Shown here: in pieces, positions 1 to 9,338 of the stretch
Position numbering within the stretch: the stretch's first letter is position 1
How the letters are laid out: each line of letters starts with the position of its first letter
From: a virus
Strand: one strand, 5' to 3'
IMG/VR virus record: IMGVR_UViG_3300028569_000020
Span: 1 to 64,000 of that record
Length of the DNA stretch: 64,000 nucleotides
Translations under genes and position numbers: made by a program
Notes under the pieces: model-generated
Databases searched by the model: none
Seen by the model: only the letters and a program-made list of their open reading frames with translations
What the model was told of the DNA's origin: nothing

Positions 1-99
1 GAAGGTATCTTTCAGAAGAAATTCGAATGGTTTGTAAACCTTCGTACTTCTGGCGGTATTGATACTGTGCCTTTCTTCAGTTCTATGCGTCTGGCATAA
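1..99 (+). CDS. C-terminal end of an unidentified protein (5' truncated)
   Basis: Frame 1 is open from the first base to a TAA at 97-99 and gives 32 residues ending in FFSSMRLA. The codons are richer in C and G than in the small genes that follow, and a strong intrinsic terminator comes 9 bases after the stop, which suggests a well-expressed gene or the last gene of an operon. I do not recognise the family from this tail. The fragment contains no diagnostic motif, so no function is assigned. Confidence 0.7.
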   Translation, partial: EGIFQKKFEWFVNLRTSGGIDTVPFFSSMRLA

Positions 100-107
100 C
101 TTAAATT

Positions 108-145
108 CTGAAGATTCTAAGTTTTTTTAGAATCTTCAGTTTTTT
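108..145 (+). terminator. Strong rho-independent terminator
   Basis: A perfect 13-bp inverted repeat (108-120 with 127-139, arm CTGAAGATTCTAA) is separated by a 6-base loop and followed directly by six T residues (140-145). It ends transcription of the truncated upstream gene and separates it from the small early-type genes downstream. Confidence 0.93.
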
Positions 146-188
146 AAATATCTTCAACTTCTTAAAAACTACAACTTTTAAGTTTTAA

Positions 189-222
189 AGAAAAAAAGGG
201 TTTTTAGAAAAAAAGGTTTTTT
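189..222. repeat. Short tandem A/G-T repeat
   Basis: Two adjacent 17-base units, each AG, seven A, two or three G and five or six T, fill 189-205 and 206-222. They lie in a 170-base non-coding stretch (100-269) that otherwise holds only the terminator and A+T-rich sequence, with a TATAAT hexamer at 232-237. No good -35 accompanies that hexamer. Confidence 0.6.
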
Positions 223-269
223 AGTTTTATTTATAATTATAAATTTAAATTTCTCATTTAACTAAACAA

Positions 270-416
270 ATGAATTTTGAATCAGAGATCAAGGAGCTAG
301 ACTATCAAGCAACAGAGGATATCTTCTTAGAAGAAGATCTCAATGAATATGATGATTCATCAACTGCTTATTATAATCAGTTAATAAGTGAATGTATATT
401 ACCTATTACTAGGTAA
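270..416 (+). CDS. Small acidic protein, 48 aa
   Basis: The ORF runs from ATG (270) to TAA (414-416). The product is strongly acidic, with Glu and Asp clusters around residues 16-29, and has no membrane segment or metal-binding motif. The leader has no Shine-Dalgarno sequence but is A/C-rich just before the ATG (actaaaca), the same leader style as the cassette genes from 1600 onward. It is one of a run of four tiny genes leading into an ArdA-like antirestriction gene, so an early role against the host is a reasonable guess from context only. Family not recognised. Confidence 0.5.
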   Translation: MNFESEIKELDYQATEDIFLEEDLNEYDDSSTAYYNQLISECILPITR

Positions 417-461
417 TACTTAATTCATTCAACAAACCAACTTTCATTCAACAAACAAATC

Positions 462-614
462 ATGGCTTCATTATCTGCTTCAATCATTCTCAATCTATTA
501 GATAAGGCAACTACTTCGAGAGAAGTAGTTACTATTCTAGATACTCTAGAGTATCACTTAGGTGACACTACTGAGAGTATCACTCAACCTAACCTAGAAT
601 CTATACAATTCTAG
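462..614 (+). CDS. Small hypothetical protein, 50 aa
   Basis: The ORF runs from ATG (462) to TAG (612-614). The predicted protein is mostly helical (a Leu/Ile-rich first half, then LDTLEYHLGD). The leader contains CAACAAACAAAT directly before the start and no Shine-Dalgarno sequence, which matches the A/C-rich leaders of the downstream cassettes. The coding sequence contains internal near-repeats of the type agtatcact (around 549 and 578). No family recognised; it is probably a real gene because start, leader and spacing fit its neighbours. Confidence 0.5.
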   Translation: MASLSASIILNLLDKATTSREVVTILDTLEYHLGDTTESITQPNLESIQF

Positions 615-701
615 GTTGAGTGTGCCAGTCTGTAGACTGTCTACTATTCAACCATTCTCCCCCCTCAGGGGTTATGCTTAGCAAGTCAACCAAACAAAGC
701 A

Positions 702-827
702 ATGCCCGACACGCTCAACTTCACTGGTGACACTATCACCTATCTAGGTTTCATAGGTGTCACTTCAACCCTGATCATTCTGGTTTCAGTGTTTCGTTCC
801 TTCTACAACTCACCACTGAACAAATAA
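702..827 (+). CDS. Small single-pass membrane protein, 41 aa
   Basis: The ORF runs from ATG (702) to TAA (825-827). Residues about 13-32 (ITYLGFIGVTSTLIILVSVF) form one hydrophobic segment followed by Arg and a short polar tail, so the protein is likely to sit in the inner membrane. Upstream are a CCCCTcAGGGG inverted repeat, a TATGCTTAG sequence resembling the cassette -10 boxes (TATGCTACAAT) and an A/C-rich leader (caaccaaacaaagca). The stop overlaps the next start (TAATG). Small phage membrane proteins of this kind often act on the host envelope or in exclusion, but nothing here shows the role. Confidence 0.5.
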   Translation: MPDTLNFTGDTITYLGFIGVTSTLIILVSVFRSFYNSPLNK

Positions 828-985
828 TGAATTGCCCTGATAATGAAACCTTTGAATTAGCAATCAAGTTACACAACAAACTTCGATATCTTTCAGGAGG
901 TAATGAGAATGATCAGGATTTAGTTTCTCTTCTAGATTGTCTTATTCAAGATCAAAGAATCAACCTTATCACTCAAACAAAATGA
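827..985 (+). CDS. Small hypothetical protein, 52 aa
   Basis: The ATG at 827 overlaps the stop of the membrane-protein gene by one base. The TGA at 983-985 overlaps the ATG of the antirestriction gene in an ATGA junction. This double overlap indicates translational coupling and is the main support for the gene. The protein has two likely helices (FELAIKLHNKLRYL and LVSLLDCLIQDQ). No family recognised. Coupling suggests it is made together with the ArdA-like protein. Confidence 0.55.
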   Translation: MNCPDNETFELAIKLHNKLRYLSGGNENDQDLVSLLDCLIQDQRINLITQTK

Positions 986-1410
986 CTCAAACTGTTTACA
1001 CTGACGCCATTATTATTGACACTTTGTGTCAGGCAACTCGTGATTACTTAGAGGAGAATTGTGAGGAGGGTAGTTATGCTTTAGATGATGCTCTAGAGTT
1101 TATAGCAACTCATGGCGAAGAAAATCTAGTTAACTACTATGATGATTATATCATTATGGCAGAGAAGATTGGTTACGATGTTGTTGATGCCTTTATAAGT
1201 ATCAACGATATTAGTAATGTTAACTACGCTCAAGATTCCTTTGTTGGTTGTTACTCTAGCGGTGCTGCTTTCGCTGAAAAATATTACTGGCACAATGAAA
1301 CTCATCCTGTGCCAAGTTATATAATTGTTGATTGGGAGGCAACATGGGAGAGCAACATGCGATATGATTTTGATTATATAAACGGTTACGTGTTTGATAG
1401 TAACTGGTAG
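982..1410 (+). CDS. ArdA-like antirestriction protein, 142 aa
   Basis: ArdA proteins are acidic DNA mimics that inhibit type I restriction-modification enzymes when foreign DNA enters a cell. The product here is acidic throughout. Its second half carries the pattern typical of the family: a GCYSSGAAFAEKYYW stretch (about residues 90-104), a P-S-Y-I-I-V-D-W-E-A segment corresponding to the usual IDYEA element (about 114-123), and an Arg/Asp/Tyr-rich segment ending in GYVF. I chose ATG 982 over an in-frame ATG at 937 because 982 forms an ATGA overlap with the preceding gene, while 937 would overlap it by almost 50 bases. A terminator-like hairpin follows at 1474. The family assignment rests on pattern only. 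Confidence 0.65.
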   Translation: MTQTVYTDAIIIDTLCQATRDYLEENCEEGSYALDDALEFIATHGEENLVNYYDDYIIMAEKIGYDVVDAFISINDISNVNYAQDSFVGCYSSGAAFAEKYYWHNETHPVPSYIIVDWEATWESNMRYDFDYINGYVFDSNW

Positions 1411-1473
1411 TTACTAAGTAACATTTAGCAAGGGGCGGCAGCGGCCGCTCCTCTCTCCCTTCCCTCCCCTCCC

Positions 1474-1507
1474 GCCCTCTAGGTTACAGACCCTAGAGGG
1501 CATTTTG
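1474..1507 (+). terminator. Probable terminator after the ArdA-like gene
   Basis: A perfect 10-bp stem (GCCCTCTAGG at 1474-1483 with CCTAGAGGGC at 1492-1501) is followed by a short T-rich stretch (attttg). It lies downstream of a C/T-only tract and separates the antirestriction operon from the cassette array. Confidence 0.7.
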
Positions 1508-1515
1508 TTGATTTA

Positions 1516-1600
1516 GTAGACAGTTGCTACGCTGTCTACCTTTACCCCATAGATCCGCTGCTGACCCTGTATAATTAAAGAGTAAACAAGGGAAACCAAA
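1516..1600 (+). promoter_or_regulatory. First cassette promoter module (hairpin plus TATAAT)
   Basis: The module holds an 8-bp hairpin (GTAGACAG 1516-1523 with CTGTCTAC 1532-1539), then TGACCCTGTATAATTAAA at 1562-1579 with a perfect -10 TATAAT at 1570-1575, then an A-rich leader with AAGGG before the ATG at 1601. The hexamer 17 bases upstream does not resemble TTGACA. The TGACC..TATAATTAAA core recurs before most of the next 12 genes. Confidence 0.6.
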
Positions 1601-1744
1601 ATGTGGGATGAGATCCAAGACTGTGCAGGCGAGATTTTTGATTTCGATCAGTGGATCGATGAGATCGCCTCAGATCCCGAGTTCATCGCTCAGGTTGAGG
1701 CATCCAACGCCCAGTTTGACCTGGAGGTGGCACAGTTGCCCTAG
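1601..1744 (+). CDS. Cassette gene 1: acidic protein, 47 aa
   Basis: The ORF runs from ATG (1601) to TAG (1742-1744). The product is very acidic (many Asp and Glu, no Lys or Arg) and rich in aromatic residues (MWDEIQ, FDFDQWIDEI), so a DNA-mimic or an inhibitor that binds a basic host protein would be plausible, but this is inference. The promoter module upstream has the best -10 of the shared-box series (TATAAT). Codon use is G+C-rich compared with the structural genes. A longer ORF in another frame (1608-1979) crosses this gene and the next promoter; I rejected it because the promoter and leader geometry clearly defines this start. Confidence 0.6.
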   Translation: MWDEIQDCAGEIFDFDQWIDEIASDPEFIAQVEASNAQFDLEVAQLP

Positions 1745-1754
1745 TGGCACAGTC

Positions 1755-1814
1755 AGGGGCAATGGATGCCCCTCTGACCCTGTAGAATTAAAACAACAAA
1801 CAACCAGAGACCAA
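1755..1814 (+). promoter_or_regulatory. Cassette module: stem-loop, TAGAAT box, A/C-rich leader
   Basis: Stem AGGGGCA (1755-1761) pairs with TGCCCCT (1767-1773). Two bases later comes TGACCCTGTAGAATTAAAAC (1775-1794) with a -10-like TAGAAT at 1783-1788, then an A/C-rich leader ending in CCAGAGACCAA before the ATG. There is no T-tract after the stem and no TTGACA-like -35. Confidence 0.65.
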
Positions 1815-1979
1815 ATGACTCGCCTCCTTGCCTATCTGCTGATCTCAGGAATCACTCTCGGGGTTTCCCTCTCGGCAGTTAATAGCACCAACCAAATGAT
1901 TAAGGTATTAAACCAGAGGCAAACCGCCCAGTGTGACAGTCTAAACGCTGTCACTCCTGGCAGTTGCGTTATGCCTTGA
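1815..1979 (+). CDS. Cassette gene 2: small membrane or exported protein, 54 aa
   Basis: The ORF runs from ATG (1815) to TGA (1977-1979). The N-terminus MTRLLAYLLISGITLGVSLS is a signal-like or membrane segment with one Arg in front; the rest is polar and has two Cys (residues 40 and 51) that could form a disulphide outside the cytoplasm. The stop codon lies inside the promoter box of the next cassette (ccTTGACCCTG), so the two units are packed as closely as possible. Family not recognised. Confidence 0.6.
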   Translation: MTRLLAYLLISGITLGVSLSAVNSTNQMIKVLNQRQTAQCDSLNAVTPGSCVMP

Positions 1980-2016
1980 CCCTGTAGAATTAAAACAACC
2001 AAACAAAGGAAACCAA
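1977..2016 (+). promoter_or_regulatory. Cassette module without stem-loop
   Basis: TGACCCTGTAGAATTAAAAC lies at 1977-1996, identical to the preceding module, with TAGAAT at 1985-1990. Its first three bases are the TGA stop of the upstream gene. The leader contains AAAGGA nine bases before the ATG, a usable ribosome-binding site. Confidence 0.6.
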
Positions 2017-2181
2017 ATGACCCGCCTCTTGACCGTTCGCTGCCCCTCTGCTCCTTGGGAGAATGACACTGTGCCCGCTGATCAGGCATGGGATCTATGC
2101 TACGACCTCTCAATTGAATTTGGTTGCGCTCGCATCCTAGACGGTGAGCAGATCATCGGTGAATATCTAGACGGTCGCTAG
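2017..2181 (+). CDS. Cassette gene 3: hypothetical protein, 54 aa
   Basis: The ORF runs from ATG (2017) to TAG (2179-2181), preceded by AAAGGA and a shared promoter box. The product begins MTRLLTVRCPSAPWEND and ends with the doubled phrase LDGEQIIGEYLDGR. It is soluble and acidic, and no family is recognised. Its first five residues match those of cassette gene 2 (MTRLL), and the DNA also matches around the start (ATGACtCGCCTC versus ATGACcCGCCTC), so the shared module may extend into the first codons. Confidence 0.6.
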   Translation: MTRLLTVRCPSAPWENDTVPADQAWDLCYDLSIEFGCARILDGEQIIGEYLDGR

Positions 2182-2193
2182 ACTGTCACACAC

Positions 2194-2252
2194 AGGGGCA
2201 GAGGATGCCCCTCTACCATGCTACAATTAAACCACAAACAAAGGGAAACCAA
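2194..2252 (+). promoter_or_regulatory. Cassette module: stem-loop plus TACAAT box
   Basis: AGGGGCA (2194-2200) pairs with TGCCCCT (2206-2212) around a 5-base loop. TATGC-type variant box follows: ccATGCTACAATTAAAC with TACAAT at 2222-2227. The leader carries AAAGGGAAACCAA before the ATG. Confidence 0.65.
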
Positions 2253-2498
2253 ATGGCAACCGCAACGATGACCGAGACCGAGACCTTCAACGGTTGGGCA
2301 AACTGGGCAACTTGGAATGTAGCATTGTGGTTACAGAATGATGAGGCAATGTATAAGGTTGCTAGGCAATATGATCGCTACGATGCACTCATCCCACGCC
2401 TTGAGTATGCCTTCGGTCAGATGACCCCAGACGGTGCCCGTTGGATGGATCCAACTATAGATACCGATGAGTTGGATGAGATGCTCACCGATATGTAG
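2253..2498 (+). CDS. Cassette gene 4: NWxTWN-type phage protein, 81 aa
   Basis: The ORF runs from ATG (2253) to TAG (2496-2498). Residues about 12-32 (NGWANWATWNVALWLQNDEA) carry the N-[YW]-x-T-W-N-V-A-L-W-[IL]-x-N-D pattern that I know from a family of small proteins of unknown function common in phages, including cyanophages. The remainder is helical and acidic, ending TDELDEMLTDM. This is the one array member with a clearly widespread family signature, which suggests that the cassettes carry genuine phage genes and not random ORFs. No biochemical function is known to me. A good ribosome-binding site (AAAGGGA) precedes it. Confidence 0.7.
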   Translation: MATATMTETETFNGWANWATWNVALWLQNDEAMYKVARQYDRYDALIPRLEYAFGQMTPDGARWMDPTIDTDELDEMLTDM

Positions 2499-2508
2499 AT
2501 TATACTCT

Positions 2509-2530
2509 AGAGGGGCATTGCTGCCCCTCT
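2509..2530 (+). other. Intercassette stem-loop
   Basis: A perfect 9-bp stem, AGAGGGGCA (2509-2517) with TGCCCCTCT (2522-2530), closes a 4-base loop (ttgc). It is the longest hairpin of its type in the array. No TAGAAT box follows before the next ATG at 2556, so this junction kept only the stem-loop half of the module. There is no T-tract, so it is not a classical terminator. Confidence 0.7.
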
Positions 2531-2555
2531 CACTGTTAACCACTGCCCTCACTAA

Positions 2556-2711
2556 ATGAGATTTAGAAAACGCAAGATCGCCTTAGCTATCATCGGTTTC
2601 ATGATGTTTGGGCCTGGCGTGTTAACCGTCCTAGCACTGATCAAATATCTAGATCGTTTTGATGTGCCTGCAGGCGGACTGTCACCAGATGACCCCAACC
2701 TCTCCCTCTGA
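2556..2711 (+). CDS. Cassette gene 5: small membrane protein, 51 aa
   Basis: The ORF runs from ATG (2556) to TGA (2709-2711). A basic N-terminus (MRFRKRK) precedes a hydrophobic segment of about 20 residues (IALAIIGFMMFGPGVLTVLA, residues 8-27), then a polar tail. The positive-inside rule places the N-terminus in the cytoplasm. The gene has no promoter box of its own and no Shine-Dalgarno sequence; it may be read from the upstream cassette. Its TGA stop is also the start of the next TGACCCTGTAGAAT box. Family not recognised. Confidence 0.55.
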   Translation: MRFRKRKIALAIIGFMMFGPGVLTVLALIKYLDRFDVPAGGLSPDDPNLSL

Positions 2712-2745
2712 CCCTGTAGAATTAAACCACAAACAACCAGAGACC
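2709..2745 (+). promoter_or_regulatory. Cassette module: TAGAAT box and leader
   Basis: TGACCCTGTAGAATTAAAC lies at 2709-2727 with TAGAAT at 2717-2722, followed by CACAAACAACCAGAGACC and the ATG. The box overlaps the stop codon of the preceding gene, and no stem-loop is present. Confidence 0.6.
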
Positions 2746-2946
2746 ATGCTTCCAATCAACTCTAAGTTCAGTGCCTGCGCTCGTAAGGTTACAGGCAACC
2801 CCTTAAGGGGCACTGTGGGGGTGACCTTTACTAGCAGCGATAAAGTTTATCGCTTCACTGGGGTTTCCCGCCGTGCCATTCTAGGCGCTGTCATTCTCCC
2901 CCCCGCTAGTGTAGGCAAGTGGATCAATCGCCACTGTTTCGCCTGA
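2746..2946 (+). CDS. Cassette gene 6: KTSC-like small basic protein, 66 aa
   Basis: The ORF runs from ATG (2746) to TGA (2944-2946). The C-terminal half, with DKVYRFTGVSRRAI followed by PPASVGKWINRH, resembles the KTSC domain pattern (Y-x-Y-x-G-V-P..., then A-x-S-x-G-x-x-[FW]-N). KTSC domains are small and occur in phage and bacterial proteins, sometimes fused to nucleic-acid enzymes; their function is not well defined. The protein is basic, unlike most of its neighbours. The assignment is tentative because only short matches are visible. Confidence 0.55.
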   Translation: MLPINSKFSACARKVTGNPLRGTVGVTFTSSDKVYRFTGVSRRAILGAVILPPASVGKWINRHCFA

Positions 2947-2993
2947 GGGGCACGGTTGCCATGCTACAATTAAACAACAAACAACCCCAGACC
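2947..2993 (+). promoter_or_regulatory. Cassette module: weak stem and TACAAT box
   Basis: A reduced stem (GGCA 2949-2952 with TGCC 2957-2960) is followed by ATGCTACAATTAAAC with TACAAT at 2965-2970 and the leader AACAAACAACCCCAGACC. The leader has no Shine-Dalgarno sequence. Confidence 0.6.
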
Positions 2994-3170
2994 ATGCCAA
3001 ACGTTTCCCGCTCCTACCGTGCCAAAACAACCTCATCCTATGCCCTACATCGCCGCTGGATTGAGCAGGATATGGATCAGCAGGATGCCGATATAATGAG
3101 AGTATATGATCGGGCACAATACTATGCCGAGCAGGACGGTTGCCACACTGGCACAGACAGCGATGCCTAG
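2994..3170 (+). CDS. Cassette gene 7: hypothetical protein, 58 aa
   Basis: The ORF runs from ATG (2994) to TAG (3168-3170). A basic N-terminal part (SRSYRAK, LHRRWIEQDM) is followed by an acidic, Gln/Asp-rich helix (DQQDADIMRVYDRAQYYAEQ). The charge split could suit nucleic-acid or protein binding, but no family is recognised. It starts without a Shine-Dalgarno sequence behind an A/C-rich leader. Confidence 0.55.
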   Translation: MPNVSRSYRAKTTSSYALHRRWIEQDMDQQDADIMRVYDRAQYYAEQDGCHTGTDSDA

Positions 3171-3177
3171 TCGCTGC

Positions 3178-3215
3178 TGACCGTCTAGAATTAAAACAAC
3201 AAAGCAACCCAACCA
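3178..3215 (+). promoter_or_regulatory. Cassette module: TGACCGTCTAGAAT box
   Basis: TGACCGTCTAGAATTAAAAC lies at 3178-3197 with TAGAAT at 3186-3191; this GTC variant of the box recurs at 3433 and 4003. The leader AACAAAGCAACCCAACCA has no Shine-Dalgarno sequence and there is no stem-loop. Confidence 0.6.
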
Positions 3216-3395
3216 ATGCAAATCGAAGTTCGCTACCAGACTCCTTACCCCGCCGCTGGATTGACTGAGGAGTGGCGCTCACAATTCTTTTCCACCCTGC
3301 CTGAGGCAGAGCGGATGGTCAAGTTCTACAAATCCTGTGGATCACCTGCCCACATTGCCCCTAGCAGTTTGGCACAATTCGCCCACCTCGCCTAG
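3216..3395 (+). CDS. Cassette gene 8: hypothetical protein, 59 aa
   Basis: The ORF runs from ATG (3216) to TAG (3393-3395). It starts with a beta-like stretch (MQIEVRYQTPYPAAG) and continues with a helix rich in Glu, Phe and Met (LPEAERMVKFYKSCG). The phrase TLPEAERMVKFYKS resembles the small sensor-like or coordinate-handling folds seen in many phage genes, but I cannot name a family. The start is defined by the upstream TAGAAT box and leader. Confidence 0.55.
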   Translation: MQIEVRYQTPYPAAGLTEEWRSQFFSTLPEAERMVKFYKSCGSPAHIAPSSLAQFAHLA

Positions 3396-3405
3396 TGGCA
3401 CAAGC

Positions 3406-3462
3406 GAGGGGCACCCCGCCCCTCTGACCGTCTAGAATTAAAACAACAAACAACCAGAGACC
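3406..3462 (+). promoter_or_regulatory. Cassette module: stem-loop plus TAGAAT box
   Basis: Stem GAGGGGC (3406-3412) pairs with GCCCCTC (3418-3424). TGACCGTCTAGAATTAAAAC follows at 3425-3444 (TAGAAT 3433-3438), then AACAAACAACCAGAGACC and the ATG. The leader matches that of the 1755 module in its last 18 bases up to the ATG context. Confidence 0.65.
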
Positions 3463-3687
3463 ATGATCACCGAAAACGACCTTCTCCAAGCTTGGGCCGA
3501 TGCCACCGCTCACCTGACCCCAGAGGAGCGGGAGGCCGTAGGCAAGGCAACCCCAGAGCAATGGATGGCAGCAATGGCAGGATGCGTTAACGATCCCGAT
3601 TTCTGGCAGAGAATGGGCGCTGCCTTTATCGAGGGAGTGGCGAAGGGGTTCGCTGATTGGGCAGCTGATTGGGCAGCGAACAGGTAA
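3463..3687 (+). CDS. Cassette gene 9: helical protein, 74 aa
   Basis: The ORF runs from ATG (3463) to TAA (3685-3687). The product is almost entirely helical and Ala-rich (LLQAWADATAHLTPEEREAV, then FADWAADWAANR at the C-terminus). A doubled ADWAADWAA near the end forms an amphipathic tail. It is acidic overall and contains no metal-binding motif. Family not recognised. It is one of the larger members of the array and has a complete module upstream. Confidence 0.6.
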   Translation: MITENDLLQAWADATAHLTPEEREAVGKATPEQWMAAMAGCVNDPDFWQRMGAAFIEGVAKGFADWAADWAANR

Positions 3688-3701
3688 GGCACTGGCACAC
3701 T

Positions 3702-3756
3702 GGGGCCAAATGCCCCCTCTGACCCTGTAGACTAACCAAGTAAACAAACAAACCAA
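3702..3756 (+). promoter_or_regulatory. Divergent cassette module
   Basis: GGGGC (3702-3706) pairs with GCCCC (3712-3716). The box has drifted to TGACCCTGTAGACTAACC (TAGACT at 3728-3733), and the leader is AAGTAAACAAACAAACCAA with no Shine-Dalgarno sequence. Confidence 0.55.
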
Positions 3757-3960
3757 ATGATCACAACCAATTTCTCAGATCTGACCGCCAACGAGGCAAG
3801 GCAGGCAATCTACAATCTCACCTGCATCTATAGTTGGGAGACCATTGGCAGCGAGATGATCAGCCGCATGAGTGGCGATGAGGCCCGCTCCTTTGTTGAA
3901 GATTTCACCAACCTCTACACCTGCGATATAGATGAGGATGATGATGAGGGTGCCAATTAA
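3757..3960 (+). CDS. Cassette gene 10: acidic protein, 67 aa
   Basis: The ORF runs from ATG (3757) to TAA (3958-3960). It starts MITTNFSDLTANEARQAIYN, continues with a helix, and ends with a highly acidic tail (CDIDEDDDEGAN). The tail might mimic nucleic acid or help solubility. It shares the MIT start with cassette gene 9 (MITEND), again suggesting that similarity between cassettes extends over the start codon. Family not recognised. Confidence 0.6.
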   Translation: MITTNFSDLTANEARQAIYNLTCIYSWETIGSEMISRMSGDEARSFVEDFTNLYTCDIDEDDDEGAN

Positions 3961-3976
3961 GGCACTGGCACAATCG

Positions 3977-4036
3977 GGGGCAGAGGTTGCCCCTTGACCG
4001 TCTAGAATTAAACCACAAACAAAGGAGAGATCCCAA
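3977..4036 (+). promoter_or_regulatory. Cassette module with strong ribosome-binding site
   Basis: GGGGCA (3977-3982) pairs with TGCCCC (3988-3993). TTGACCGTCTAGAATTAAAC follows with TAGAAT at 4003-4008. The leader contains AAAGGAGAG about 10 bases before the ATG, the best Shine-Dalgarno match in the array. Confidence 0.65.
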
Positions 4037-4207
4037 ATGACCCGCTTCACTTCCAACCCTTACGAGCAGCAGATCCTCGCTAAGGGTCGCGACCTGCCCA
4101 CCGCTGCTGCTCCTGCACAGCAATTCCCTAAGACCATCTACGGTCGCACCTTTGAGACTAAGGCAGACTACGATGAGGCAATCGCTGATTTCCTAAACGG
4201 AAACTAG
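4037..4207 (+). CDS. Cassette gene 11: hypothetical protein, 56 aa
   Basis: The ORF runs from ATG (4037) to TAG (4205-4207). The product starts MTRFTSNPYEQQILAKGRDL, has an Ala/Pro linker (PTAAAPAQQFP) and a C-terminal part (YGRTFETKADYDEAIADFL) that looks like a small helical hairpin. It has the strongest ribosome-binding site of the array and may therefore be the best translated member. Family not recognised. Confidence 0.6.
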   Translation: MTRFTSNPYEQQILAKGRDLPTAAAPAQQFPKTIYGRTFETKADYDEAIADFLNGN

Positions 4208-4240
4208 GGGCACCCCTACGGGGGGGCACCCCTACGGGGG
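4207..4240. repeat. Two tandem copies of GGGGCACCCCTACGG
   Basis: The unit GGGGCACCCCTACGG is present twice in direct succession between the stop of cassette gene 11 and the next promoter. Each copy contains a CCCC/GGGG inverted repeat. A third, related piece (acccctacggggg) occurs at 4474-4487 before cassette gene 13. Confidence 0.75.
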
Positions 4241-4247
4241 GGCGGGG

Positions 4248-4276
4248 TTGACACCTGCCCCTTTACCCCGTATAAT
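4248..4276 (+). promoter_or_regulatory. Perfect sigma70 consensus promoter
   Basis: TTGACA (4248-4253), a 17-base spacer and TATAAT (4271-4276) match the bacterial housekeeping consensus at every position. It lies 30 bases before the ATG of cassette gene 12. It is the only array promoter with a recognisable -35, and its -10 and TTAA extension align with the TAGAATTAAA boxes of the other modules. Confidence 0.88.
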
Positions 4277-4306
4277 TTAAGAGTACCAAACCAAAGTAAC
4301 CCACCA

Positions 4307-4474
4307 ATGACCGCAACCTTCACCATCGCCACCAAGTTCCTAGAGTTGACCACCTTTGAATTGGAGGAGTGGTTATGGGTAGGCACCACCTCCCTGGAAG
4401 AGGAGCGGGCAATCTGTAAGGAACTGGCAACCCGTGCCAAGCGTAGGCAAGCGATGGAAGATTTCCTCTGGTGA
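4307..4474 (+). CDS. Cassette gene 12: hypothetical protein, 55 aa
   Basis: The ORF runs from ATG (4307) to TGA (4472-4474). The product is Glu/Thr-rich at the start (TFTIATKFLELTTFELEEWL) and basic near the end (TRAKRRQAMEDFLW). The N-terminal half, ELTTFELEEWLWVGTTSLEEER, is strongly acidic. It has a perfect sigma70 promoter but no Shine-Dalgarno sequence (leader accaaagtaacccacca). Expression would be immediate on infection because the host polymerase can read this promoter unaided. Family not recognised. Confidence 0.6.
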   Translation: MTATFTIATKFLELTTFELEEWLWVGTTSLEEERAICKELATRAKRRQAMEDFLW

Positions 4475-4538
4475 CCCCTACGGGGGCCCCCTCGGGGGTA
4501 TGCTACAATTAAACAGTAATCAACCAACCTCAGACCTA
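4475..4538 (+). promoter_or_regulatory. Last cassette module
   Basis: G/C-rich inverted repeats (ccctacgggggccccctcggggg) precede TATGCTACAATTAAAC with TACAAT at 4504-4509. The leader (agtaatcaaccaacctcagaccta) has no Shine-Dalgarno sequence. Confidence 0.55.
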
Positions 4539-4745
4539 ATGACCAACCTGCCAATCTCCCCATGCTCAGACCTTGCCACCAGAGAACTCAAGTGGTTGTG
4601 GCAATCTGATCAGTTGAAGAATTACGCTTCCCGCCCCTCTATGTTTATTCACTGGGGTGTGCCTGCCTACATCATCGCCGCCCAGTGTGCTGAGGTTCAC
4701 GCTGATGAGGTGGCACCCTGCCCTATCAGTGGGTGGCGTTACTGA
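4539..4745 (+). CDS. Cassette gene 13: hypothetical protein, 68 aa
   Basis: The ORF runs from ATG (4539) to TGA (4743-4745). The product contains LATRELKWLWQSDQLKNYAS, a partly hydrophobic segment (FIHWGVPAYIIAAQCAEVHADEV) and three Cys and two His residues (C9, C50, C61; H38, H54) without a standard metal-binding spacing. It is the last member of the array. A UUCG-capped hairpin follows, after which base composition drops sharply to A+T-rich. Family not recognised. Confidence 0.6.
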   Translation: MTNLPISPCSDLATRELKWLWQSDQLKNYASRPSMFIHWGVPAYIIAAQCAEVHADEVAPCPISGWRY

Positions 4746-4762
4746 GGGCGCCGCGACGGTCG

Positions 4763-4778
4763 CTGCCCTTCGGGGCAG
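4763..4778 (+). other. UUCG-tetraloop hairpin closing the array
   Basis: CTGCCC (4763-4768), loop TTCG, GGGCAG (4773-4778): the C(UUCG)G cap is exceptionally stable in RNA. TTGACTGTATATTATAACG follows immediately, without a T-tract, so it could be a processing or stabilising structure, or a weak terminator. Confidence 0.65.
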
Positions 4779-4805
4779 TTGACTGTATATTATAACGATA
4801 TCGTG

Positions 4806-4979
4806 ATGGTGCCGAGCGCCGAGCGAAAAGTCGTGGGTCCCTCCAACCTACAAACCTTTGAAAACGCTCAAGTGATTTCGAATACATATAAAAAAATTTC
4901 CGCCAGAAAAAACAGACAAAAAAACCTGAATGAAATAGATAGATATATAAGTTACCTCGCAGGTATTCTAAGTGAATAA
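4806..4979 (+). CDS. Hypothetical protein, 57 aa
   Basis: I chose ATG 4806; in-frame TTG 4779 and GTG 4803 are alternatives, but 4779 overlaps the hairpin. The stop is 4977-4979. The product is basic (KKISARKNRQKN) with a helical C-terminus. It straddles the composition boundary: its first codons are G+C-rich and the rest A+T-rich. It overlaps the next ORF by 8 bases. Family not recognised. Confidence 0.45.
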   Translation: MVPSAERKVVGPSNLQTFENAQVISNTYKKISARKNRQKNLNEIDRYISYLAGILSE

Positions 4980-5226
4980 AGAAGAATTATATAATATTGC
5001 TGATCAGGTAGGATTTACTGAATACTTGCTAGTAGCTCAAGAATTTGAAAGAGTAGAGTGCGAAAAAATTTGCAAATCATTTGCTATGAATGAGAAGCGA
5101 ATCGAGGTTGCTGCTGCATTAAATAGAGCAGCAGATTTAATTCGTTTACGTAGCGAGTTTGGAAACATCAATTTACCAGAAAGAAATACACCAAAAGATT
5201 TTATAACTTATATTGAGGATAAGTAG
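4972..5226 (+). CDS. Hypothetical helical protein, 84 aa
   Basis: The start is GTG at 4972, overlapping the preceding stop by 8 bases, so translation is probably coupled; no ATG is available in frame near the beginning. The protein is predicted to be helical with alternating charged residues (EFERVECEKICKSFAMNEKR) and an Ala/Leu/Arg-rich middle (AAALNRAADLIRLRSEF). It belongs to the A+T-rich small-gene block between the cassette array and the baseplate operon. Family not recognised. Confidence 0.6.
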   Translation: MNKEELYNIADQVGFTEYLLVAQEFERVECEKICKSFAMNEKRIEVAAALNRAADLIRLRSEFGNINLPERNTPKDFITYIEDK

Positions 5227-5227
5227 A

Positions 5228-5554
5228 ATGAATAGTTACATTTTAAGAGCAGACAATCCTTCTAAACTATCGAATACCCTTTATGTGTATTACACTGGTG
5301 ATGGATGGGATACAAGTATGGAAAAAGTGATTTATTATTTTAAAAGAGAGGATGCTGAGGAGGCATTAAATTTAGTAAATAGTATTGCATTAAACATCAC
5401 CGTTGAAGAGGTCACTAAAGACGGTCCAAAGGTTGATGCAGTAGATGGTGATGATGATGGTTTGGTTGAGGACGGCACAGTATTTGAGCGCCCGATTGAA
5501 GTAAAAACAGTAAAGAAGAGAGCATATACTAAAAAGAAAGATATTAATAAATAA
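5228..5554 (+). CDS. Hypothetical protein, 108 aa
   Basis: The first in-frame ATG is at 5228, two bases after the upstream stop. The N-terminal half is beta-rich with YILRADNPSK and YYTGDGWD, followed by a helix (EDAEEALNLVNS). The C-terminal third is acidic (DAVDGDDDGLVEDG), and the protein ends in a Lys-rich tail (VKKRAYTKKKDINK). The layout, a compact domain with a charged tail, is common in small phage regulators, but no family is recognised. Confidence 0.65.
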   Translation: MNSYILRADNPSKLSNTLYVYYTGDGWDTSMEKVIYYFKREDAEEALNLVNSIALNITVEEVTKDGPKVDAVDGDDDGLVEDGTVFERPIEVKTVKKRAYTKKKDINK

Positions 5555-5570
5555 TTCAAAAATCACCATT

Positions 5571-5729
5571 ATGAAATACGTTACCACAATTGAATATGAC
5601 GATGGAAATGACGAGTATATGTTACCGATACCTGAAGAGCTGTTAACAGCTTTAGGATGGGTTGAGGGTGATAATTTAAAATGGGAGTATGCAGACGATT
5701 CTATTTTGCTGAGTAAAACAAATGACTGA
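5571..5729 (+). CDS. AbrB/MazE-like small protein, 52 aa
   Basis: The ORF runs from ATG (5571) to TGA (5727-5729). The segment LPIPEELLTALGWVEGDNL, followed by alternating hydrophobic and charged residues (KWEYADDSILLSK), matches the swapped-hairpin AbrB/SpoVT/MazE pattern: P-[IL]-P-x-E-[IL]-[LC]-x-x-L-G-[WL]-x-x-G-D. Such proteins bind DNA as dimers or act as antitoxins; single-domain phage copies are usually of unknown target. It overlaps the next gene by 8 bases. No toxin gene is evident beside it. Confidence 0.65.
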   Translation: MKYVTTIEYDDGNDEYMLPIPEELLTALGWVEGDNLKWEYADDSILLSKTND

Positions 5730-6042
5730 ATTCGGATATAAGATTGTTGATAAAAATGGAAATATAGTAGAAGATAAGACGTTTGAAGATTTTGATTCAG
5801 TAGCAGACTATATGTTAGATGCAGCTGACAAGTGGTATTCTGGGTTACAGGATCCTAGTGATGTTATGAGTTTACAAAGAAGAGAAAATGGCACTGTAGT
5901 TTTTGAAGACACTAATAGTTTTGGAATTGAAAATGATGCACTTAGAAACCACGGATCAGAAGATACAGAAGTTGTTGATGTTACTGCAACAACAGGAGAA
6001 TCGGATTCAGTATTTGGAGAAACGTATAGCGAAGATTCCTGA
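5722..6042 (+). CDS. Acidic hypothetical protein, 106 aa
   Basis: The ATG at 5722 overlaps the AbrB-like gene by 8 bases. The N-terminus has alternating strand and turn (FGYKIVDKNGNIVEDKTFED) and a helix (SVADYMLDAADKWYSGL). The C-terminal third is low-complexity and acidic, and that part overlaps a second ORF in another frame that has clear coiled-coil character, so the tail composition may be constrained by the overlap. Family not recognised. Confidence 0.6.
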   Translation: MTEFGYKIVDKNGNIVEDKTFEDFDSVADYMLDAADKWYSGLQDPSDVMSLQRRENGTVVFEDTNSFGIENDALRNHGSEDTEVVDVTATTGESDSVFGETYSEDS

Positions 6043-6193
6043 TCCGTTTTCAATTAGTTATAGACCACCTGGTGAAAACTATAAGAGTCTTCCCGATGCG
6101 TTAGATGCAGTATGCAATCGACTAAATAATTTGGAAGAAAAGACAAGAGAAGCGAAAGTATGCCACCAGCGTCTAGAATGCAAGACAAAGTAG
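5936..6193 (+). CDS. Short coiled-coil protein overlapping its neighbours, 85 aa
   Basis: The frame is open from upstream; ATG 5936 (or 5933, or 5903) is the likely start, with GGA a few bases before. The N-terminal half is a heptad-type coiled coil (TTDQKIQKLLMLLQQQENRI and the following YLEKRI), and the C-terminal half (PDALDAVCNRLNNLEEK) is again helical. It overlaps the preceding gene by about 107 bases and the PAAR gene by 34 bases. Its position directly before the PAAR protein suggests a tail or baseplate role; T4 has small genes at the corresponding place (5.1-5.3). The start is uncertain. Confidence 0.55.
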   Translation: MHLETTDQKIQKLLMLLQQQENRIQYLEKRIAKIPDPFSISYRPPGENYKSLPDALDAVCNRLNNLEEKTREAKVCHQRLECKTK

Positions 6194-6471
6194 CTACTGG
6201 GCATGGGTGTGATGTTACAACAACCATCCTTGAAGGGTCTCCTAACGTCATTATAGAAGGTCTTGGCGCTGCATATCAAGGTGCTGCATTAACACCTCAT
6301 ACTATTACAAATCCAGCGCCATTACCAGCGCCACCGTGTATACCACACACAGCAAAAGTTAATGTTGGTAGTAGCACAGTAAAGGTAAATGGAAAAGCTT
6401 TAGCACGAGTTGGTGATTCTGCAGATGCTGGTAGCATTATAGCTGGCGCAAAGAAAGTATTAGCAAAATGA
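6160..6471 (+). CDS. PAAR-domain spike-tip protein (T4 gp5.4-like), 103 aa
   Basis: PAAR proteins form the sharp cone that caps the central spike of contractile tails (T4 gp5.4) and bind one metal ion at the tip. The sequence starts MPPASRMQDKVATGHGCD and contains the short glycine-separated strands usual for the family, such as NVIIEGLGAAYQG and KVNVGSSTVKVNGKALARVGD. His and Cys residues that could hold the metal are present (H15, C17, H47, C60, H63). The gene lies two small genes before gp25/gp6, comparable to the 5.4 position upstream of gene 6 in T4. Its stop overlaps the next start (ATGA). Confidence 0.85.
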   Translation: MPPASRMQDKVATGHGCDVTTTILEGSPNVIIEGLGAAYQGAALTPHTITNPAPLPAPPCIPHTAKVNVGSSTVKVNGKALARVGDSADAGSIIAGAKKVLAK

Positions 6472-6854
6472 AAGAAGTAGAAATTCATATAAATGAATGG
6501 ATTGAGAAAATTTCTAAGTTGCAATCAGAATTAAATGGTTTTTCGATTTTCCCGTATGCAAAATCTGCGAAATATACTATCATTCATTGTAGAGTAGAAG
6601 ATATTATACCAGTTGAAGATTACGACGTTGTTTTTTATGTTGTTGAAGATTATCTAGATTTGCAATCTATTCAATATTGGGTAAACTTTTACAATGAATT
6701 GTATACTCAATACATATTTTTGGAAGACCATGCAGATTATGACACTTATATCAATAATATTCAAACAAACAATGGTAAGTATAATTTAATTTTAATGCAA
6801 GATTTACAGAAATTACGAAATCGGGATAGCAACCCCGTAAAAAGTTCTGTTTAA
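6468..6854 (+). CDS. Hypothetical protein, 128 aa
   Basis: The ATG at 6468 overlaps the PAAR gene stop by 4 bases. The protein is acidic and aromatic-rich (VVFYVVEDYLDLQSIQYWVN, then YTQYIFLEDHADYDTYINN), has no signal or membrane segment and ends with a basic RNRDSNPVKSSV. Its place between the spike tip and gp25 makes a baseplate or hub-assembly role possible. Family not recognised. Confidence 0.65.
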   Translation: MKEVEIHINEWIEKISKLQSELNGFSIFPYAKSAKYTIIHCRVEDIIPVEDYDVVFYVVEDYLDLQSIQYWVNFYNELYTQYIFLEDHADYDTYINNIQTNNGKYNLILMQDLQKLRNRDSNPVKSSV

Positions 6855-6872
6855 CTTTTACGAGAAAAACAG

Positions 6873-7070
6873 ATGGCAAAAAAACAGATTCCTGACAACG
6901 TACCTTCGATGATGTCTGAAGATTTTGGCACCACAGTATTAATTACTGATCCAAGGTCTGACGCTTTACTAGAAAGATCACGCAAAATGAAATATATGAA
7001 ACCTCCGAATCGTTTAGAAAAATGGTGTGGTGGCAAAGGTGGCTTCGATGATTATGCCGAGTGGTTATAA
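6873..7070 (+). CDS. Small basic hypothetical protein, 65 aa
   Basis: The ORF runs from ATG (6873) to TAA (7068-7070). It starts MAKKQIPDNVPSMMSEDFGT, includes TDPRSDALLERSRKMKYMKP and ends RLEKWCGGKGGFDDYAEWL. The well-ordered, non-repetitive sequence and the lack of overlap support a real gene. It is the last gene before the late promoter of the gp25-gp6 operon. Family not recognised. Confidence 0.6.
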   Translation: MAKKQIPDNVPSMMSEDFGTTVLITDPRSDALLERSRKMKYMKPPNRLEKWCGGKGGFDDYAEWL

Positions 7071-7093
7071 TCGCGTCTCCGTCATATATGTGT

Positions 7094-7101
7094 GATAAAT
7101 A
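7094..7101 (+). promoter_or_regulatory. T4-type late promoter (GATAAATA)
   Basis: The octamer GATAAATA differs from the T4 late consensus TATAAATA only at the first base and lies 24 bases before the gp25 start. It would be read by host polymerase carrying the phage late sigma gp55. Confidence 0.7.
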
Positions 7102-7124
7102 TAGTAGACTTATAGTGGTATTTA

Positions 7125-7523
7125 ATGTCCACATTTCAAACTTTTAAAGATATAAGTGTAGCATTTGGTGCTCACCCAAACACAAAAGATTTAGTTGTGG
7201 TTAAAAACGAAACTGCTATTAAAAACGCCTTACAAAATTTAATTTTGACAAAAAGAGGCGAAAGACCTTTTAATTCAAATTTAGGTAGTAGAGTAACTGA
7301 GTTACTTTTTGATTTACTAGATTATGGTACTGCTGCTTCTATAAGAGACGAAATTATTTTATTAGTTAATGATTATGAGCCTCGTGTAAATCTATTAGAT
7401 GTTATTGTCACACCCGATGATAGTAACAATGCTTTTGAAGTTTATATAGAATTTGAAATTATTGGTAGAGAAATTGAAGGGGCACCTACGTCAACAGAAT
7501 TTCTTTTAAAGAGAACGAGATAA
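7125..7523 (+). CDS. 25: Baseplate wedge subunit gp25, 132 aa
   Basis: gp25 is a small wedge protein that joins the gp6 ring to the tail tube and starts sheath assembly; it resembles a lysozyme-like GPW/gp25 fold. The characteristic core is visible: KNALQNLILTKRGERPFNSN (the T-x-x-G-E-R-P-[FM]-x-P/S-x-x-G motif, residues about 27-46), LGSRVTELLFDLLDY after it, then RDEIILLVNDYEPRV (the E-P-R-V motif, about residues 70-86). The length matches the T4 protein (132 aa). It is the first gene of the late operon containing gp6 and the giant wedge protein, three bases before gp6. Confidence 0.95.
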   Translation: MSTFQTFKDISVAFGAHPNTKDLVVVKNETAIKNALQNLILTKRGERPFNSNLGSRVTELLFDLLDYGTAASIRDEIILLVNDYEPRVNLLDVIVTPDDSNNAFEVYIEFEIIGREIEGAPTSTEFLLKRTR

Positions 7524-7526
7524 TCA

Positions 7527-9338
7527 ATGCCATATTCGCAGTTAAATCAATTAGATTTTAACAATATAAAAAATTCGCTCAAAGAGTATTTGAGAGCGAA
7601 TTCAGAATTTAGCGACTATGATTTTGAAGGTAGTGCTTTAAGTAACTTATTGGATATTTTAGCTTATAATACTTATTATACTGCATTCAATACAAACATG
7701 GTAGCAAACGAGATGTTTCTCGATTCTGCTACACTAAGAGATAATGTTGTTGCAATCGCCAAGCAATTAGGATATAGACCAAAATCTGCTACTGCATCAC
7801 AAGCAACGTTAAGTTTGAAACTTAATTATACTTCACCAAACAAACCAAACACTGCGATTATACGTAGAGGTAAGGCATTTACATCATTTTTTGATAATTC
7901 AGTATATCAGTATTCATTATTAGATGATGTAAGAACACCAGTTAATAATGGAGTTGCATTTTTTGAAAACGTGACCGTTTATTCTGGCACTATTGTTACT
8001 GATTACCATACAGTGCAGTCAGTATTAAGAAATCAAAAGTTTCTATTAAAAAATCAAAATATTGATACTACTACTATTAGAATAAAAATATTTAAATCTT
8101 TTCAATCTTCATCGTTTGAGTTATATGATTATGTAGAAAATATTTTAAATGTAAATCCAAATAGTAGAGTTTTCTTTCTAACCGAAATTGAAGATGAAAA
8201 TTACGAAATTAAATTTGGCGATGGCGTATTTGGAAGAAAATTACTGGATGGTGAATATATAGAAATTTCATATCTGACTACTTCAGGACCAGAAACAAAT
8301 GGCGCAAGAGTATTTTCTTTTAATGGAGTAGTAGAAGATTTAGAAACTACAAATAACAGTTTAAATGCATATAGTATCAGTCTTGGAGAAATTATTCTTA
8401 TTTCCGCTTCTTCTGGTGGGGAATATTCAGAAAATTTAGAAAGAATTAAGTTTAATGCGGCAAAAAATTACGCAACTCAAGATAGAGCAGTAACAAGTGA
8501 AGATTACAAAGCAATTGTGCGCAATTTATATCCATCTGTAGCGGATATTACAGCCTTTGGCGGTGAAGAAGATGATCCACCCGAGTATGGCGTGGTTAAA
8601 ATTGTAATCAAACCAAAATATTCTACTACGTTGTCTTCATTTACTAAAAATGATCTAGAAAAGAAGCTGAAAAAGTATTCGGTTGCTTCGGTAACTCCAA
8701 AAATTGTAGATCCTTCAATATTATATGTTGAATTAACTTCTAGAGTATTCTACGATACAAACAAAACTACATATAAACCCGATAAAATTCTTTCATCTGT
8801 TATTAAAAATATTGAAGATTATATTGTTTTGTCGGATACAGAAAAATTTGATGGTAAATTTAGATATAGTAAATTTGTCGGTGTGATTGATGATGCAGAA
8901 ACATCTATCAAATCAAACTTAACTACCATTATGTTAAGAAAAGATTTTTATCCAGCAATTAACTCTAAATTTTATTATGAAATTTGTTACAAAAATCCAT
9001 TTTTAATCGATGACTTACCTGTAATAAGTAGTAGTGGATTTATTGTAAGAGAATTTTCTCAATATACTGTTTATATTGAAGATAGACAAGGTAAAATGAT
9101 ACTTTACAGATTAGATAGTATTACAGGTGAAAAAATTGTCATGAATCCTAATCTAGGTAGTGTTGATTATGCAAAAGGTGAAATAATGATGAATAATCTG
9201 ATTATATTGAAAGGATCGTTTCCTGATGAAAAAATAGAAATTAGAGTAAAACCAGCTTTAAACGATATTGTATCTTCCAGAGAAATGTTTCTGGATGTTG
9301 ATATTACTAACAGCAAATTCACTATTATTCAAGAGTAA
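7527..9338 (+). CDS. 6: Baseplate wedge subunit gp6, 603 aa
   Basis: gp6 forms the inner ring of the baseplate; its dimers link neighbouring wedges. The N-terminus PYSQLNQLDFNNIKNSLKEY, followed by a DYDFEGSALSNLLDILAYNT stretch (residues about 29-48) and MFLDSATLRDNVVAIAKQLG, is characteristic of T4-type gp6. The middle has FGDGVFGRKLLDGEYI (about 230-245) and TSEDYKAIVRNLYPSVADI (about 322-340), the usual baseplate J-like elements. Length is close to T4 gp6 (660 aa). The gene follows gp25 by 3 bases and precedes the gp7-like gene by 4 bases. Confidence 0.94.
   Translation: MPYSQLNQLDFNNIKNSLKEYLRANSEFSDYDFEGSALSNLLDILAYNTYYTAFNTNMVANEMFLDSATLRDNVVAIAKQLGYRPKSATASQATLSLKLNYTSPNKPNTAIIRRGKAFTSFFDNSVYQYSLLDDVRTPVNNGVAFFENVTVYSGTIVTDYHTVQSVLRNQKFLLKNQNIDTTTIRIKIFKSFQSSSFELYDYVENILNVNPNSRVFFLTEIEDENYEIKFGDGVFGRKLLDGEYIEISYLTTSGPETNGARVFSFNGVVEDLETTNNSLNAYSISLGEIILISASSGGEYSENLERIKFNAAKNYATQDRAVTSEDYKAIVRNLYPSVADITAFGGEEDDPPEYGVVKIVIKPKYSTTLSSFTKNDLEKKLKKYSVASVTPKIVDPSILYVELTSRVFYDTNKTTYKPDKILSSVIKNIEDYIVLSDTEKFDGKFRYSKFVGVIDDAETSIKSNLTTIMLRKDFYPAINSKFYYEICYKNPFLIDDLPVISSSGFIVREFSQYTVYIEDRQGKMILYRLDSITGEKIVMNPNLGSVDYAKGEIMMNNLIILKGSFPDEKIEIRVKPALNDIVSSREMFLDVDITNSKFTIIQE

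Follow-up and report, generated by a model that had tools for sequence, protein, structure and literature searches.

The -35 element of the early promoters of phage T4 is GTTTAC. T4-type phages reportedly carry PeSL (promoter-early stem-loop) cassettes, whose description is ascribed to Arbiol et al. in 2010 and Comeau et al. in 2014. For the cyanophage S-PM2 it was concluded that PeSLs are too sparse in the region called the ORFanage for a PeSL mechanism (Puxty et al. 2015, PMC4503421). In the haloarchaeal tailed virus HGTV-1, according to the account of Sencilo et al. (2013) given in PMC3950731, most open reading frames (ORFs) of one arm are located behind a conserved TATA-like region and an inverted repeat, and shuffling was suggested. 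Here we describe an array of 13 tiny genes occupying positions 1556-4745, modules included (ORFs 1601-4745), of the first 64 kb of the 94.5-kb virus record IMGVR_UViG_3300028569_000020; these 64 kb are referred to as the window. All but one of the genes are preceded by versions of a module made up of a hairpin, a promoter-like box and a leader. The best reading, to which we assign a probability of about three in four, is that of a PeSL-like array of single-gene cassettes recombining at its modules. The array of the window is denoted by W and its ORFs, in order, by g1-g13; L with a number stands for the locus of a relative, and f with a number for other gene families.

All 13 ORFs are on the + strand and encode products of 47-81 amino acids (Table 1). 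A module in front of 12 of them had been noticed in the first-pass annotation, and this was confirmed: 12 of the 13 starts are preceded by a box of the form TGACC[CG]T[GC]TAGAATTAAA, TACAAT, TATAAT or TAGACT followed by an A/C-rich leader, the exception being g5 (start at 2556), whose hairpin is not followed by a recognisable box. Searching the 64 kb for the box with at most three mismatches yielded seven matches, all within the array, with 0.33 expected and none of 100 shuffled sequences reaching seven. A hairpin had rightly been described as kept in most modules, g1 and g6 having no convincing one. In the exact form GGGGCA-(3-6)-TGCCCC it occurs at four places in the entire 94.5-kb record, all of them within the array. 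Stems of at least 7 bp lie directly 5' of the box in front of g2, g4, g8, g9, g11 and g12, and a 5-bp stem in front of g10; apart from the box-less hairpin of g5, the remaining hairpins of W are short or overlap the preceding gene.

Module statistics were derived from 157 modules of 14 dense loci, which had been picked for similar modules. The modules vary between phages in sequence and geometry. In 95 of the 157 a stem ends 4-14 nucleotides (nt) 5' of the -10 element, mostly at 8-10 nt, compared with 14.8 in shuffled sequences, and the mean folding z score is -1.61 for modules versus -0.28 for coding sequence. The hairpin arms comprise 56 different sequences, and approximately 30% of the modules have no stem. 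A -35 element matching TTGACA in at least five of six positions at a distance of 16-18 nt was found in 35 modules (2.0 expected) and an extended -10 (TGn) in 61 (13 expected); in front of g12 there is a sigma70 site, TTGACA-17-TATAAT. Sigma70-type promoter signals are thus present in the modules, and promoter activity is predicted. The predicted 5' untranslated region is about 18 nt long, consists of 78% A+C and has little structure; a Shine-Dalgarno-like word is present in 25 of the 157 modules. For 17 of 131 modules, the box supplies the TGA at which the preceding gene stops. The late TATAAATA box was not found in any of the 157. Among 20 distinct sampled hairpins (from modules chosen for pairing, no covariation test) the stems were strongly G-first, the sixth pair from the loop being G-C in 18, A-T in two and C-G in none, which favours a strand-specific role over a symmetric DNA site.

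Pattern and protein scans of viral contigs, together with named phages, yielded 86 distinct loci with array genes. The ORFs are mutually unrelated, as first annotated, but they cannot be called ORFans: all families except that of g5, 12 of the 13, have members in four or more of the 86 loci. For g8, 178 relatives were found in viral contigs. A set of 50,697 phage records contained no relative of g8 or g13. Among bacteria and archaea (84,980 genomes) g8 had one weak relative only (39% over 35 residues) and the exact box plus leader pattern had zero matches, thus no origin in a host was detected. A looser leader pattern was also run on viral contigs; many unrelated contigs were among the matches listed, and it was not used as evidence alone.

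Amino acid identities of array genes and core genes proved to be discordant. Between W and L176 they are 95% for g13, 94% for g8 and 87% for g12, versus 41% for gp6 and 48% for gp25. The g11 product is 92% identical to its counterparts in L140 and L141 and 50% identical to that of L176, and the loci closest in the core, L158-L160 (gp6 71-78%), have few array genes in common with W, at no more than 56%. Each array gene therefore has its own nearest relative, and cassettes evidently cross phage lineages. The block shared by W and L176 around g12 runs from hairpin through promoter and leader to the gene and ends at the next hairpin, with unrelated flanks; the g11 block shared by W and L140 likewise extends from hairpin to hairpin. 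Among 16 loci, 14 of 293 high-scoring segment pairs (HSPs) span more than one gene. In 11% (5' side) and 17% (3' side) of cases an HSP ends at a point deeper than 30 nt within a gene, compared with 47% of array positions. In an anchored test homology stopped at the ATG, at the box or at the hairpin. The conclusion on breakpoints relies on the unselected HSP-end test, the anchored test being partly circular by its requirement for differing neighbours. By the HSP-end measure the homology blocks correspond to single genes ending at modules.

It had been proposed that relatives should be compared for different genes behind the same module, and this was what was found: identical modules precede unrelated genes, and the same genes stand behind other modules and beside other neighbours. 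The same genes in the same order, which would speak against a shuffling platform, were not seen in relatives. With other genes interspersed, the order is g1 g3 g7 g2 g8 g4 g11 in L141, g3 g5 g7 g6 g8 g4 g11 g9 in L140 and g3 g7 g4 g8 g11 g13 g12 in L176. W and L176 have nine genes and zero direct neighbours in common. The gene 3' of g7 is g8 in W, g2 in L141, g6 in L140 and f55 in L176; the 3' flank of g7 is constant in these four loci (...GCCTAG, a short arm, GCTGACC).

In sequence, the modules go with the genome more strongly than with the gene, a property that we call house style. In the 14 dense loci the similarity threshold was exceeded by 30.3% of upstream pairs within a locus, by 20.6% of pairs upstream of the same gene in different loci and by 8.6% of other pairs. 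When the first coding bases were compared in the same way, the values were 0.1%, 46.4% and 0.0%, respectively. None of 500 permutations in which locus labels were swapped within families reached the observed within-locus similarity. In 72 unselected loci the observed value was 0.150, whereas permutation gave 0.053 on average and 0.064 at most. Leaders of different genes, taken alone, were similar in 18.5% of pairs within a locus versus 4.2% between loci (10.0% versus 2.9% in the unselected loci), and in 13 loci an identical upstream stretch of 28 nt is repeated before two to four unrelated genes. A module thus evidently resembles the others of its genome more than the module of the same gene elsewhere. 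In W, the g12 module is of L176 style and the g10 module of L140 style, as expected of imported cassettes.

Several observations weigh against an array recombining at its modules. Most modules of W (TGACC-TAGAAT type) have neither a good -35 element nor TGn. T-runs are absent 3' of the array hairpins; taking into account that a terminator scan gave three terminator-like sites versus 3.4 expected, none of them an array hairpin on the coding strand, the hairpins do not have the form of canonical intrinsic terminators, and a terminator function is putative. The locus pairs behind the HSP counts are not independent, and in the anchored test homology halts at the ATG, outside the module, in many junctions (about one third on the 5' side). 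House style is weak in the hairpin part, which is homogenised less than box and leader, and the trend is weaker in the 72 other loci than in the 14 dense ones, which were chosen for similar modules. In the marine isolates S-CAM3, Syn1, S-H9-2 and S-SZBM1 the region or its genes are present, but repeated modules are few or missing. Finally, shared genes are largely collinear, the longest common order being seven of nine genes for W and L176 and six of nine for W and L141. Order being partly kept, turnover appears to occur mostly by gain and loss with some transposition; the idea of a shuffling platform holds as far as gene turnover is concerned, but not in the sense of free shuffling.

Part of the data could be accounted for by an ordinary compact region, in which the modules are alike because of one host sigma consensus and genes turn over by illegitimate recombination, the modules having no role. 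Promoter consensus signals are indeed enriched, and selection sorting illegitimate recombinants would likewise leave junctions between genes. However, the likeness reaches into the leader beyond the -10 element, the identical 28-nt stretches precede unrelated genes, and a single sigma consensus cannot explain leaders that resemble one another within a phage but differ from one phage to the next, hence we consider this explanation unlikely. If module and gene had been duplicated in tandem and the coding part had diverged fast, the similarity of the modules would reflect common descent in place. Same-family neighbours of the kind that such duplications leave do exist (two f49 in S-PM2, three f23 and two g13 in L251), but most neighbours are unrelated, other phages hold close relatives of each gene, frequently with 80-95% identity, and no similarity was seen between the coding starts of a locus's different genes. 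An origin of the arrays by this route is very improbable. It is hardly credible that the hairpin is the folded recombination site of an integron-like site-specific system, even though one hairpin per gene, co-directed single-gene cassettes and the strong G-first strand bias of the stems would suit a recombinase substrate: tyrosine recombinase (PF00589) was found neither in the 94.5-kb record, which is a fragment, nor in eight relatives (S-PM2 and two contigs of 193 and 234 kb among them), while control genomes were positive. In addition, the diversity of the hairpin arms, the stemless modules and the lack of one fixed cut point at the ends of homology argue against it.

In the preferred reading, a recombining PeSL-like array, the cassette would consist of a hairpin, a sigma70-type promoter (with a consensus -35 in or beside the hairpin, or with an extended -10), an A/C-rich leader and one tiny ORF. 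We propose that a gene works wherever it has landed because promoter and start signals come with the cassette, and that the module supplies short homology because modules resemble one another. In mixed infections, as T4-type phages go through their recombination-driven replication, modules would recombine homologously or homeologously; this would insert, delete or transpose one gene per event, and would also homogenise promoter and leader within a genome. The phage's own recombination system may use the short homology at the modules; a UvsX-type RecA is encoded on the contig. Each box would be an early promoter for the host RNA polymerase. Cyanomyoviruses do not have alt, modA and modB, and their early genes are thought to rely on unmodified host polymerase (PMC2984593). 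Transcription from each box, its early timing, recombination by phage machinery and products directed at the host or its defences are predictions from sequence. We are more doubtful than confident about a further step, in which the arrays would be a self-maintaining, recombinase-free analogue of integrons, repeated recombination between modules holding those of a phage alike (concerted evolution) and so keeping the array recombinogenic and giving access to the gene pool of cyanophages that are about 40% identical in core proteins.

The array lies in the hypervariable region of T4-type genomes, in a variable stretch to the left of gp25-gp6, between variable small genes and these two. T4-type markers on the contig include the baseplate wedge gene gp25 at 7125 and gp6 at 7527, and further along large terminase, portal, scaffold and major head protein. 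All named phages matching any array gene are cyanophages, and clusters of tiny genes are present at the equivalent position in Synechococcus phages S-PM2, S-CAM3 and Syn1. By gene content and relatives, the source phage is a T4-type cyanophage. The assignment to cyanophages rests on relatives, as psbA/psbD (PF00124) were not found on the contig. A megablast search with the structural genes gave zero matches to named phages, therefore there is no close isolate. The GC content of the W array is 52% (mostly 0.5-0.7 at third codon positions, GC3), versus 30% for gp6 (GC3 0.18). The same contrast between a high-GC array and a low-GC gp6 was noticed in L140, L176, L207, L189 and L194. Possible explanations are a host-like codon usage in early genes and GC-biased repair; if the arrays are integron analogues as above, GC-biased repair at module hot spots could be the source of the compositional island (52-60% GC versus about 30% in structural genes).

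A cultured example is S-PM2 (L152/L268). Its array comprises 11 genes with repeated modules at 21,570-24,802 of AJ630128, between the published ORFanage and gp25. Eight of the 11 genes are unannotated in AJ630128, and three of the array genes are overlapped by S-PM2p071 and p074, annotations placed on the other strand. Three pairs of unrelated genes have identical 28-nt upstream stretches. The ORFanage (ORFs 017-050) lies to the left of this array, hence the judgement of Puxty et al. concerns another stretch (PMC4503421). With its array largely unannotated, the cultured S-PM2 offers a laboratory system already at hand for tests of transcription and recombination.

The coordinates of the features are given in Table 1. 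The NWxTWN label given to g4 in the first-pass annotation corresponds to DUF7249, while for the KTSC-like label of g6 Pfam support was not found. The ratio of nonsynonymous to synonymous polymorphism (pN/pS) of g8 is 0.27, the one clear case, the values above 0.4 in most array genes being inflated by saturated pairs. The predicted fold of g8 (predicted local distance difference test score, pLDDT, 84) had no convincing match in the PDB. A search of window positions 1-7600 against Rfam gave no match, and PADLOC, run on ten of the proteins, gave none.

Table 1. Features of the W array and its left flank (window coordinates; aa, amino acids)
Feature	Position	Strand	Remarks
Sister module type	636..701	+	CCCCCTCAGGGG hairpin (CCCCCTC.GGGG), TTATGCTTAGCAAG box (TTATG.TTAACAAGTCAA), leader; before ORF 702-827, left of array
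ArdA-type anti-restriction gene	982..1410	+	directly upstream of array
Intrinsic-terminator-like hairpin	1474..1501	+	canonical, then ATTTTGTT; parts ArdA-like gene from array; kept in L140, L141
g1 module	1556..1600	+	TGACCCTGTATAATTAAA box 1562-1579, leader; no convincing hairpin
g1	1601..1744	+	47 aa; family in 48 loci
g2 module	1745..1814	+	hairpin 1756-1772, box 1775-1792, leader
g2	1815..1979	+	54 aa; stop TGA doubles as first codon of g3 box
g3 module	1977..2016	+	box 1977-1994, leader; overlaps stop of g2
g3	2017..2181	+	54 aa; phrog_17176 (unknown function); family in 27 loci
g4 module	2182..2252	+	hairpin 2195-2211, extended -10 TGCTACAAT at 2219-2227, leader
g4	2253..2498	+	81 aa; NWxTWN protein, DUF7249; family in 65 loci
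g5 module	2499..2555	+	hairpin 2512-2527 alone; promoter box not recognisable
g5	2556..2711	+	51 aa, hydrophobic; family in 2 loci (L140 69% aa identity); stop TGA is first codon of g6 box
g6 module	2709..2745	+	box 2709-2726, leader; no hairpin
g6	2746..2946	+	66 aa; phrog_7365 (unknown function); family in 17 loci
g7 module	2947..2993	+	short hairpin GGCA/TGCC, extended -10 TGCTACAAT at 2962-2970, leader
g7	2994..3170	+	58 aa; present in W, L140, L141, L176, next gene different in each
g8 module	3158..3215	+	hairpin CAGCGAT-GCCTA-GTCGCTG 3158-3176 (loop end is g7 stop codon), box 3178-3195, leader
g8	3216..3395	+	59 aa; family in 63 loci
g9 module	3396..3462	+	hairpin 3406-3424, box 3425-3442, leader
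g9	3463..3687	+	74 aa; family in 8 loci
g10 module	3688..3756	+	hairpin 3702-3716, TAGACT -10 at 3728-3733, L140/L141-type leader
g10	3757..3960	+	67 aa; family in 5 loci
g11 module	3961..4036	+	hairpin 3977-3993, box 3995-4012, leader
g11	4037..4207	+	56 aa; phrog_649; family in 33 loci
g12 module, L176 type	4238..4306	+	hairpin, -35 TTGACA 4248-4253 in loop region, 17-nt spacer, -10 TATAAT 4271-4276; consensus 12/12
g12	4307..4474	+	55 aa; block about 93% nt identical to L176
g13 module	4475..4538	+	CCCCCTCGGGGG-type hairpin, extended -10 TGCTACAAT at 4501-4509, leader
g13	4539..4745	+	68 aa; family in 42 loci

The product of the neighbouring ArdA-type gene matched the anti-restriction protein phrog_36653 with an E value of 2.9e-26. 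Pfam ArdA matches 14 of the 27 members of its family, the best with E 9.7e-6, the member in the window being unmatched; its structure model (pLDDT 88) had no PDB match at E <= 0.001, and similarity to a solved ArdA was thus not seen. In S-PM2, L149 and L207 the family sits within the cassette array. Copies similar to the sister module type are present in L140 (several, at about 3580-5660) and in L141. Directly 3' of the array, window positions 4771-4927 are 82% identical to L140 8773-8931 and partly retained in L141 (GGGTCCCTC.AACCTACAAA); this stretch, a boundary element or a small ORF, is unexplained. A homologue of tryptophan halogenase was noticed at 48183-49772 amid tail-fibre genes (phrog_2928, E 1e-142).

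Phages acquire and lose many tiny, presumably host-acting genes. In the arrays the unit of exchange can be read from the sequence, as a gene with its module, the latter presumably providing promoter and homology, and such a unit predicts where new genes will land. It would explain why in the 'ORFan' regions of T4-type cyanophages the content is variable and the place fixed. Tiny ORFs flanked by modules also offer a route to candidate genes for host takeover and counter-defence, the ArdA-type gene being among them.

Compared with the systems described, the arrays are like T4-type PeSLs in having, in the gaps between a hypervariable region's small genes, a stem-loop combined with a putative promoter of early type, and in that the same element precedes unrelated genes, with turnover and junctions at the element. 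They are unlike them in belonging to a cyanophage lineage, in having about one module per gene in tandem, in the own house style of each phage and in exchange between phages that are only about 40% identical in core proteins. The promoter differs as well: sigma70 TTGAC or an extended -10 takes the place of GTTTAC, an exact copy of which at a spacing of 15-19 was found in none of the 157 modules (TTGAC in 35). The arrays are therefore PeSL-like, but not the coliphage PeSL itself. The likeness suggested in the first-pass annotation stands for the composite of stem-loop and promoter, the hypervariable site and gene exchange at the element; for the sequence of the T4 early promoter it does not.

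HGTV-1 has a conserved promoter-like and inverted-repeat motif before most ORFs too, but there the promoter is archaeal, and the passages on this virus in PMC3950731 deal with one genome and hold no comparative evidence of cassette exchange. The S-PM2 ORFanage and the hyperplastic regions of cyanomyoviruses resemble the arrays as small genes of T4-type cyanophages in poorly conserved order (PMC4503421, PMC2984593); the hyperplastic region, however, is elsewhere in the genome, between phage genes g15 and g18 (PMC4503421, PMC2984593). Integron arrays likewise consist of tandem, co-directed single-gene cassettes with a hairpin each, but here an integrase was not found, the hairpin arms vary (attC was not searched with a model) and each cassette has its own promoter-like box. 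The principle is thus familiar from T4-type PeSLs and had been put forward for HGTV-1. New with respect to the literature compared are its tandem form in cyanophages, the house style, the exchange of cassettes between distant lineages and the largely unannotated array of S-PM2.

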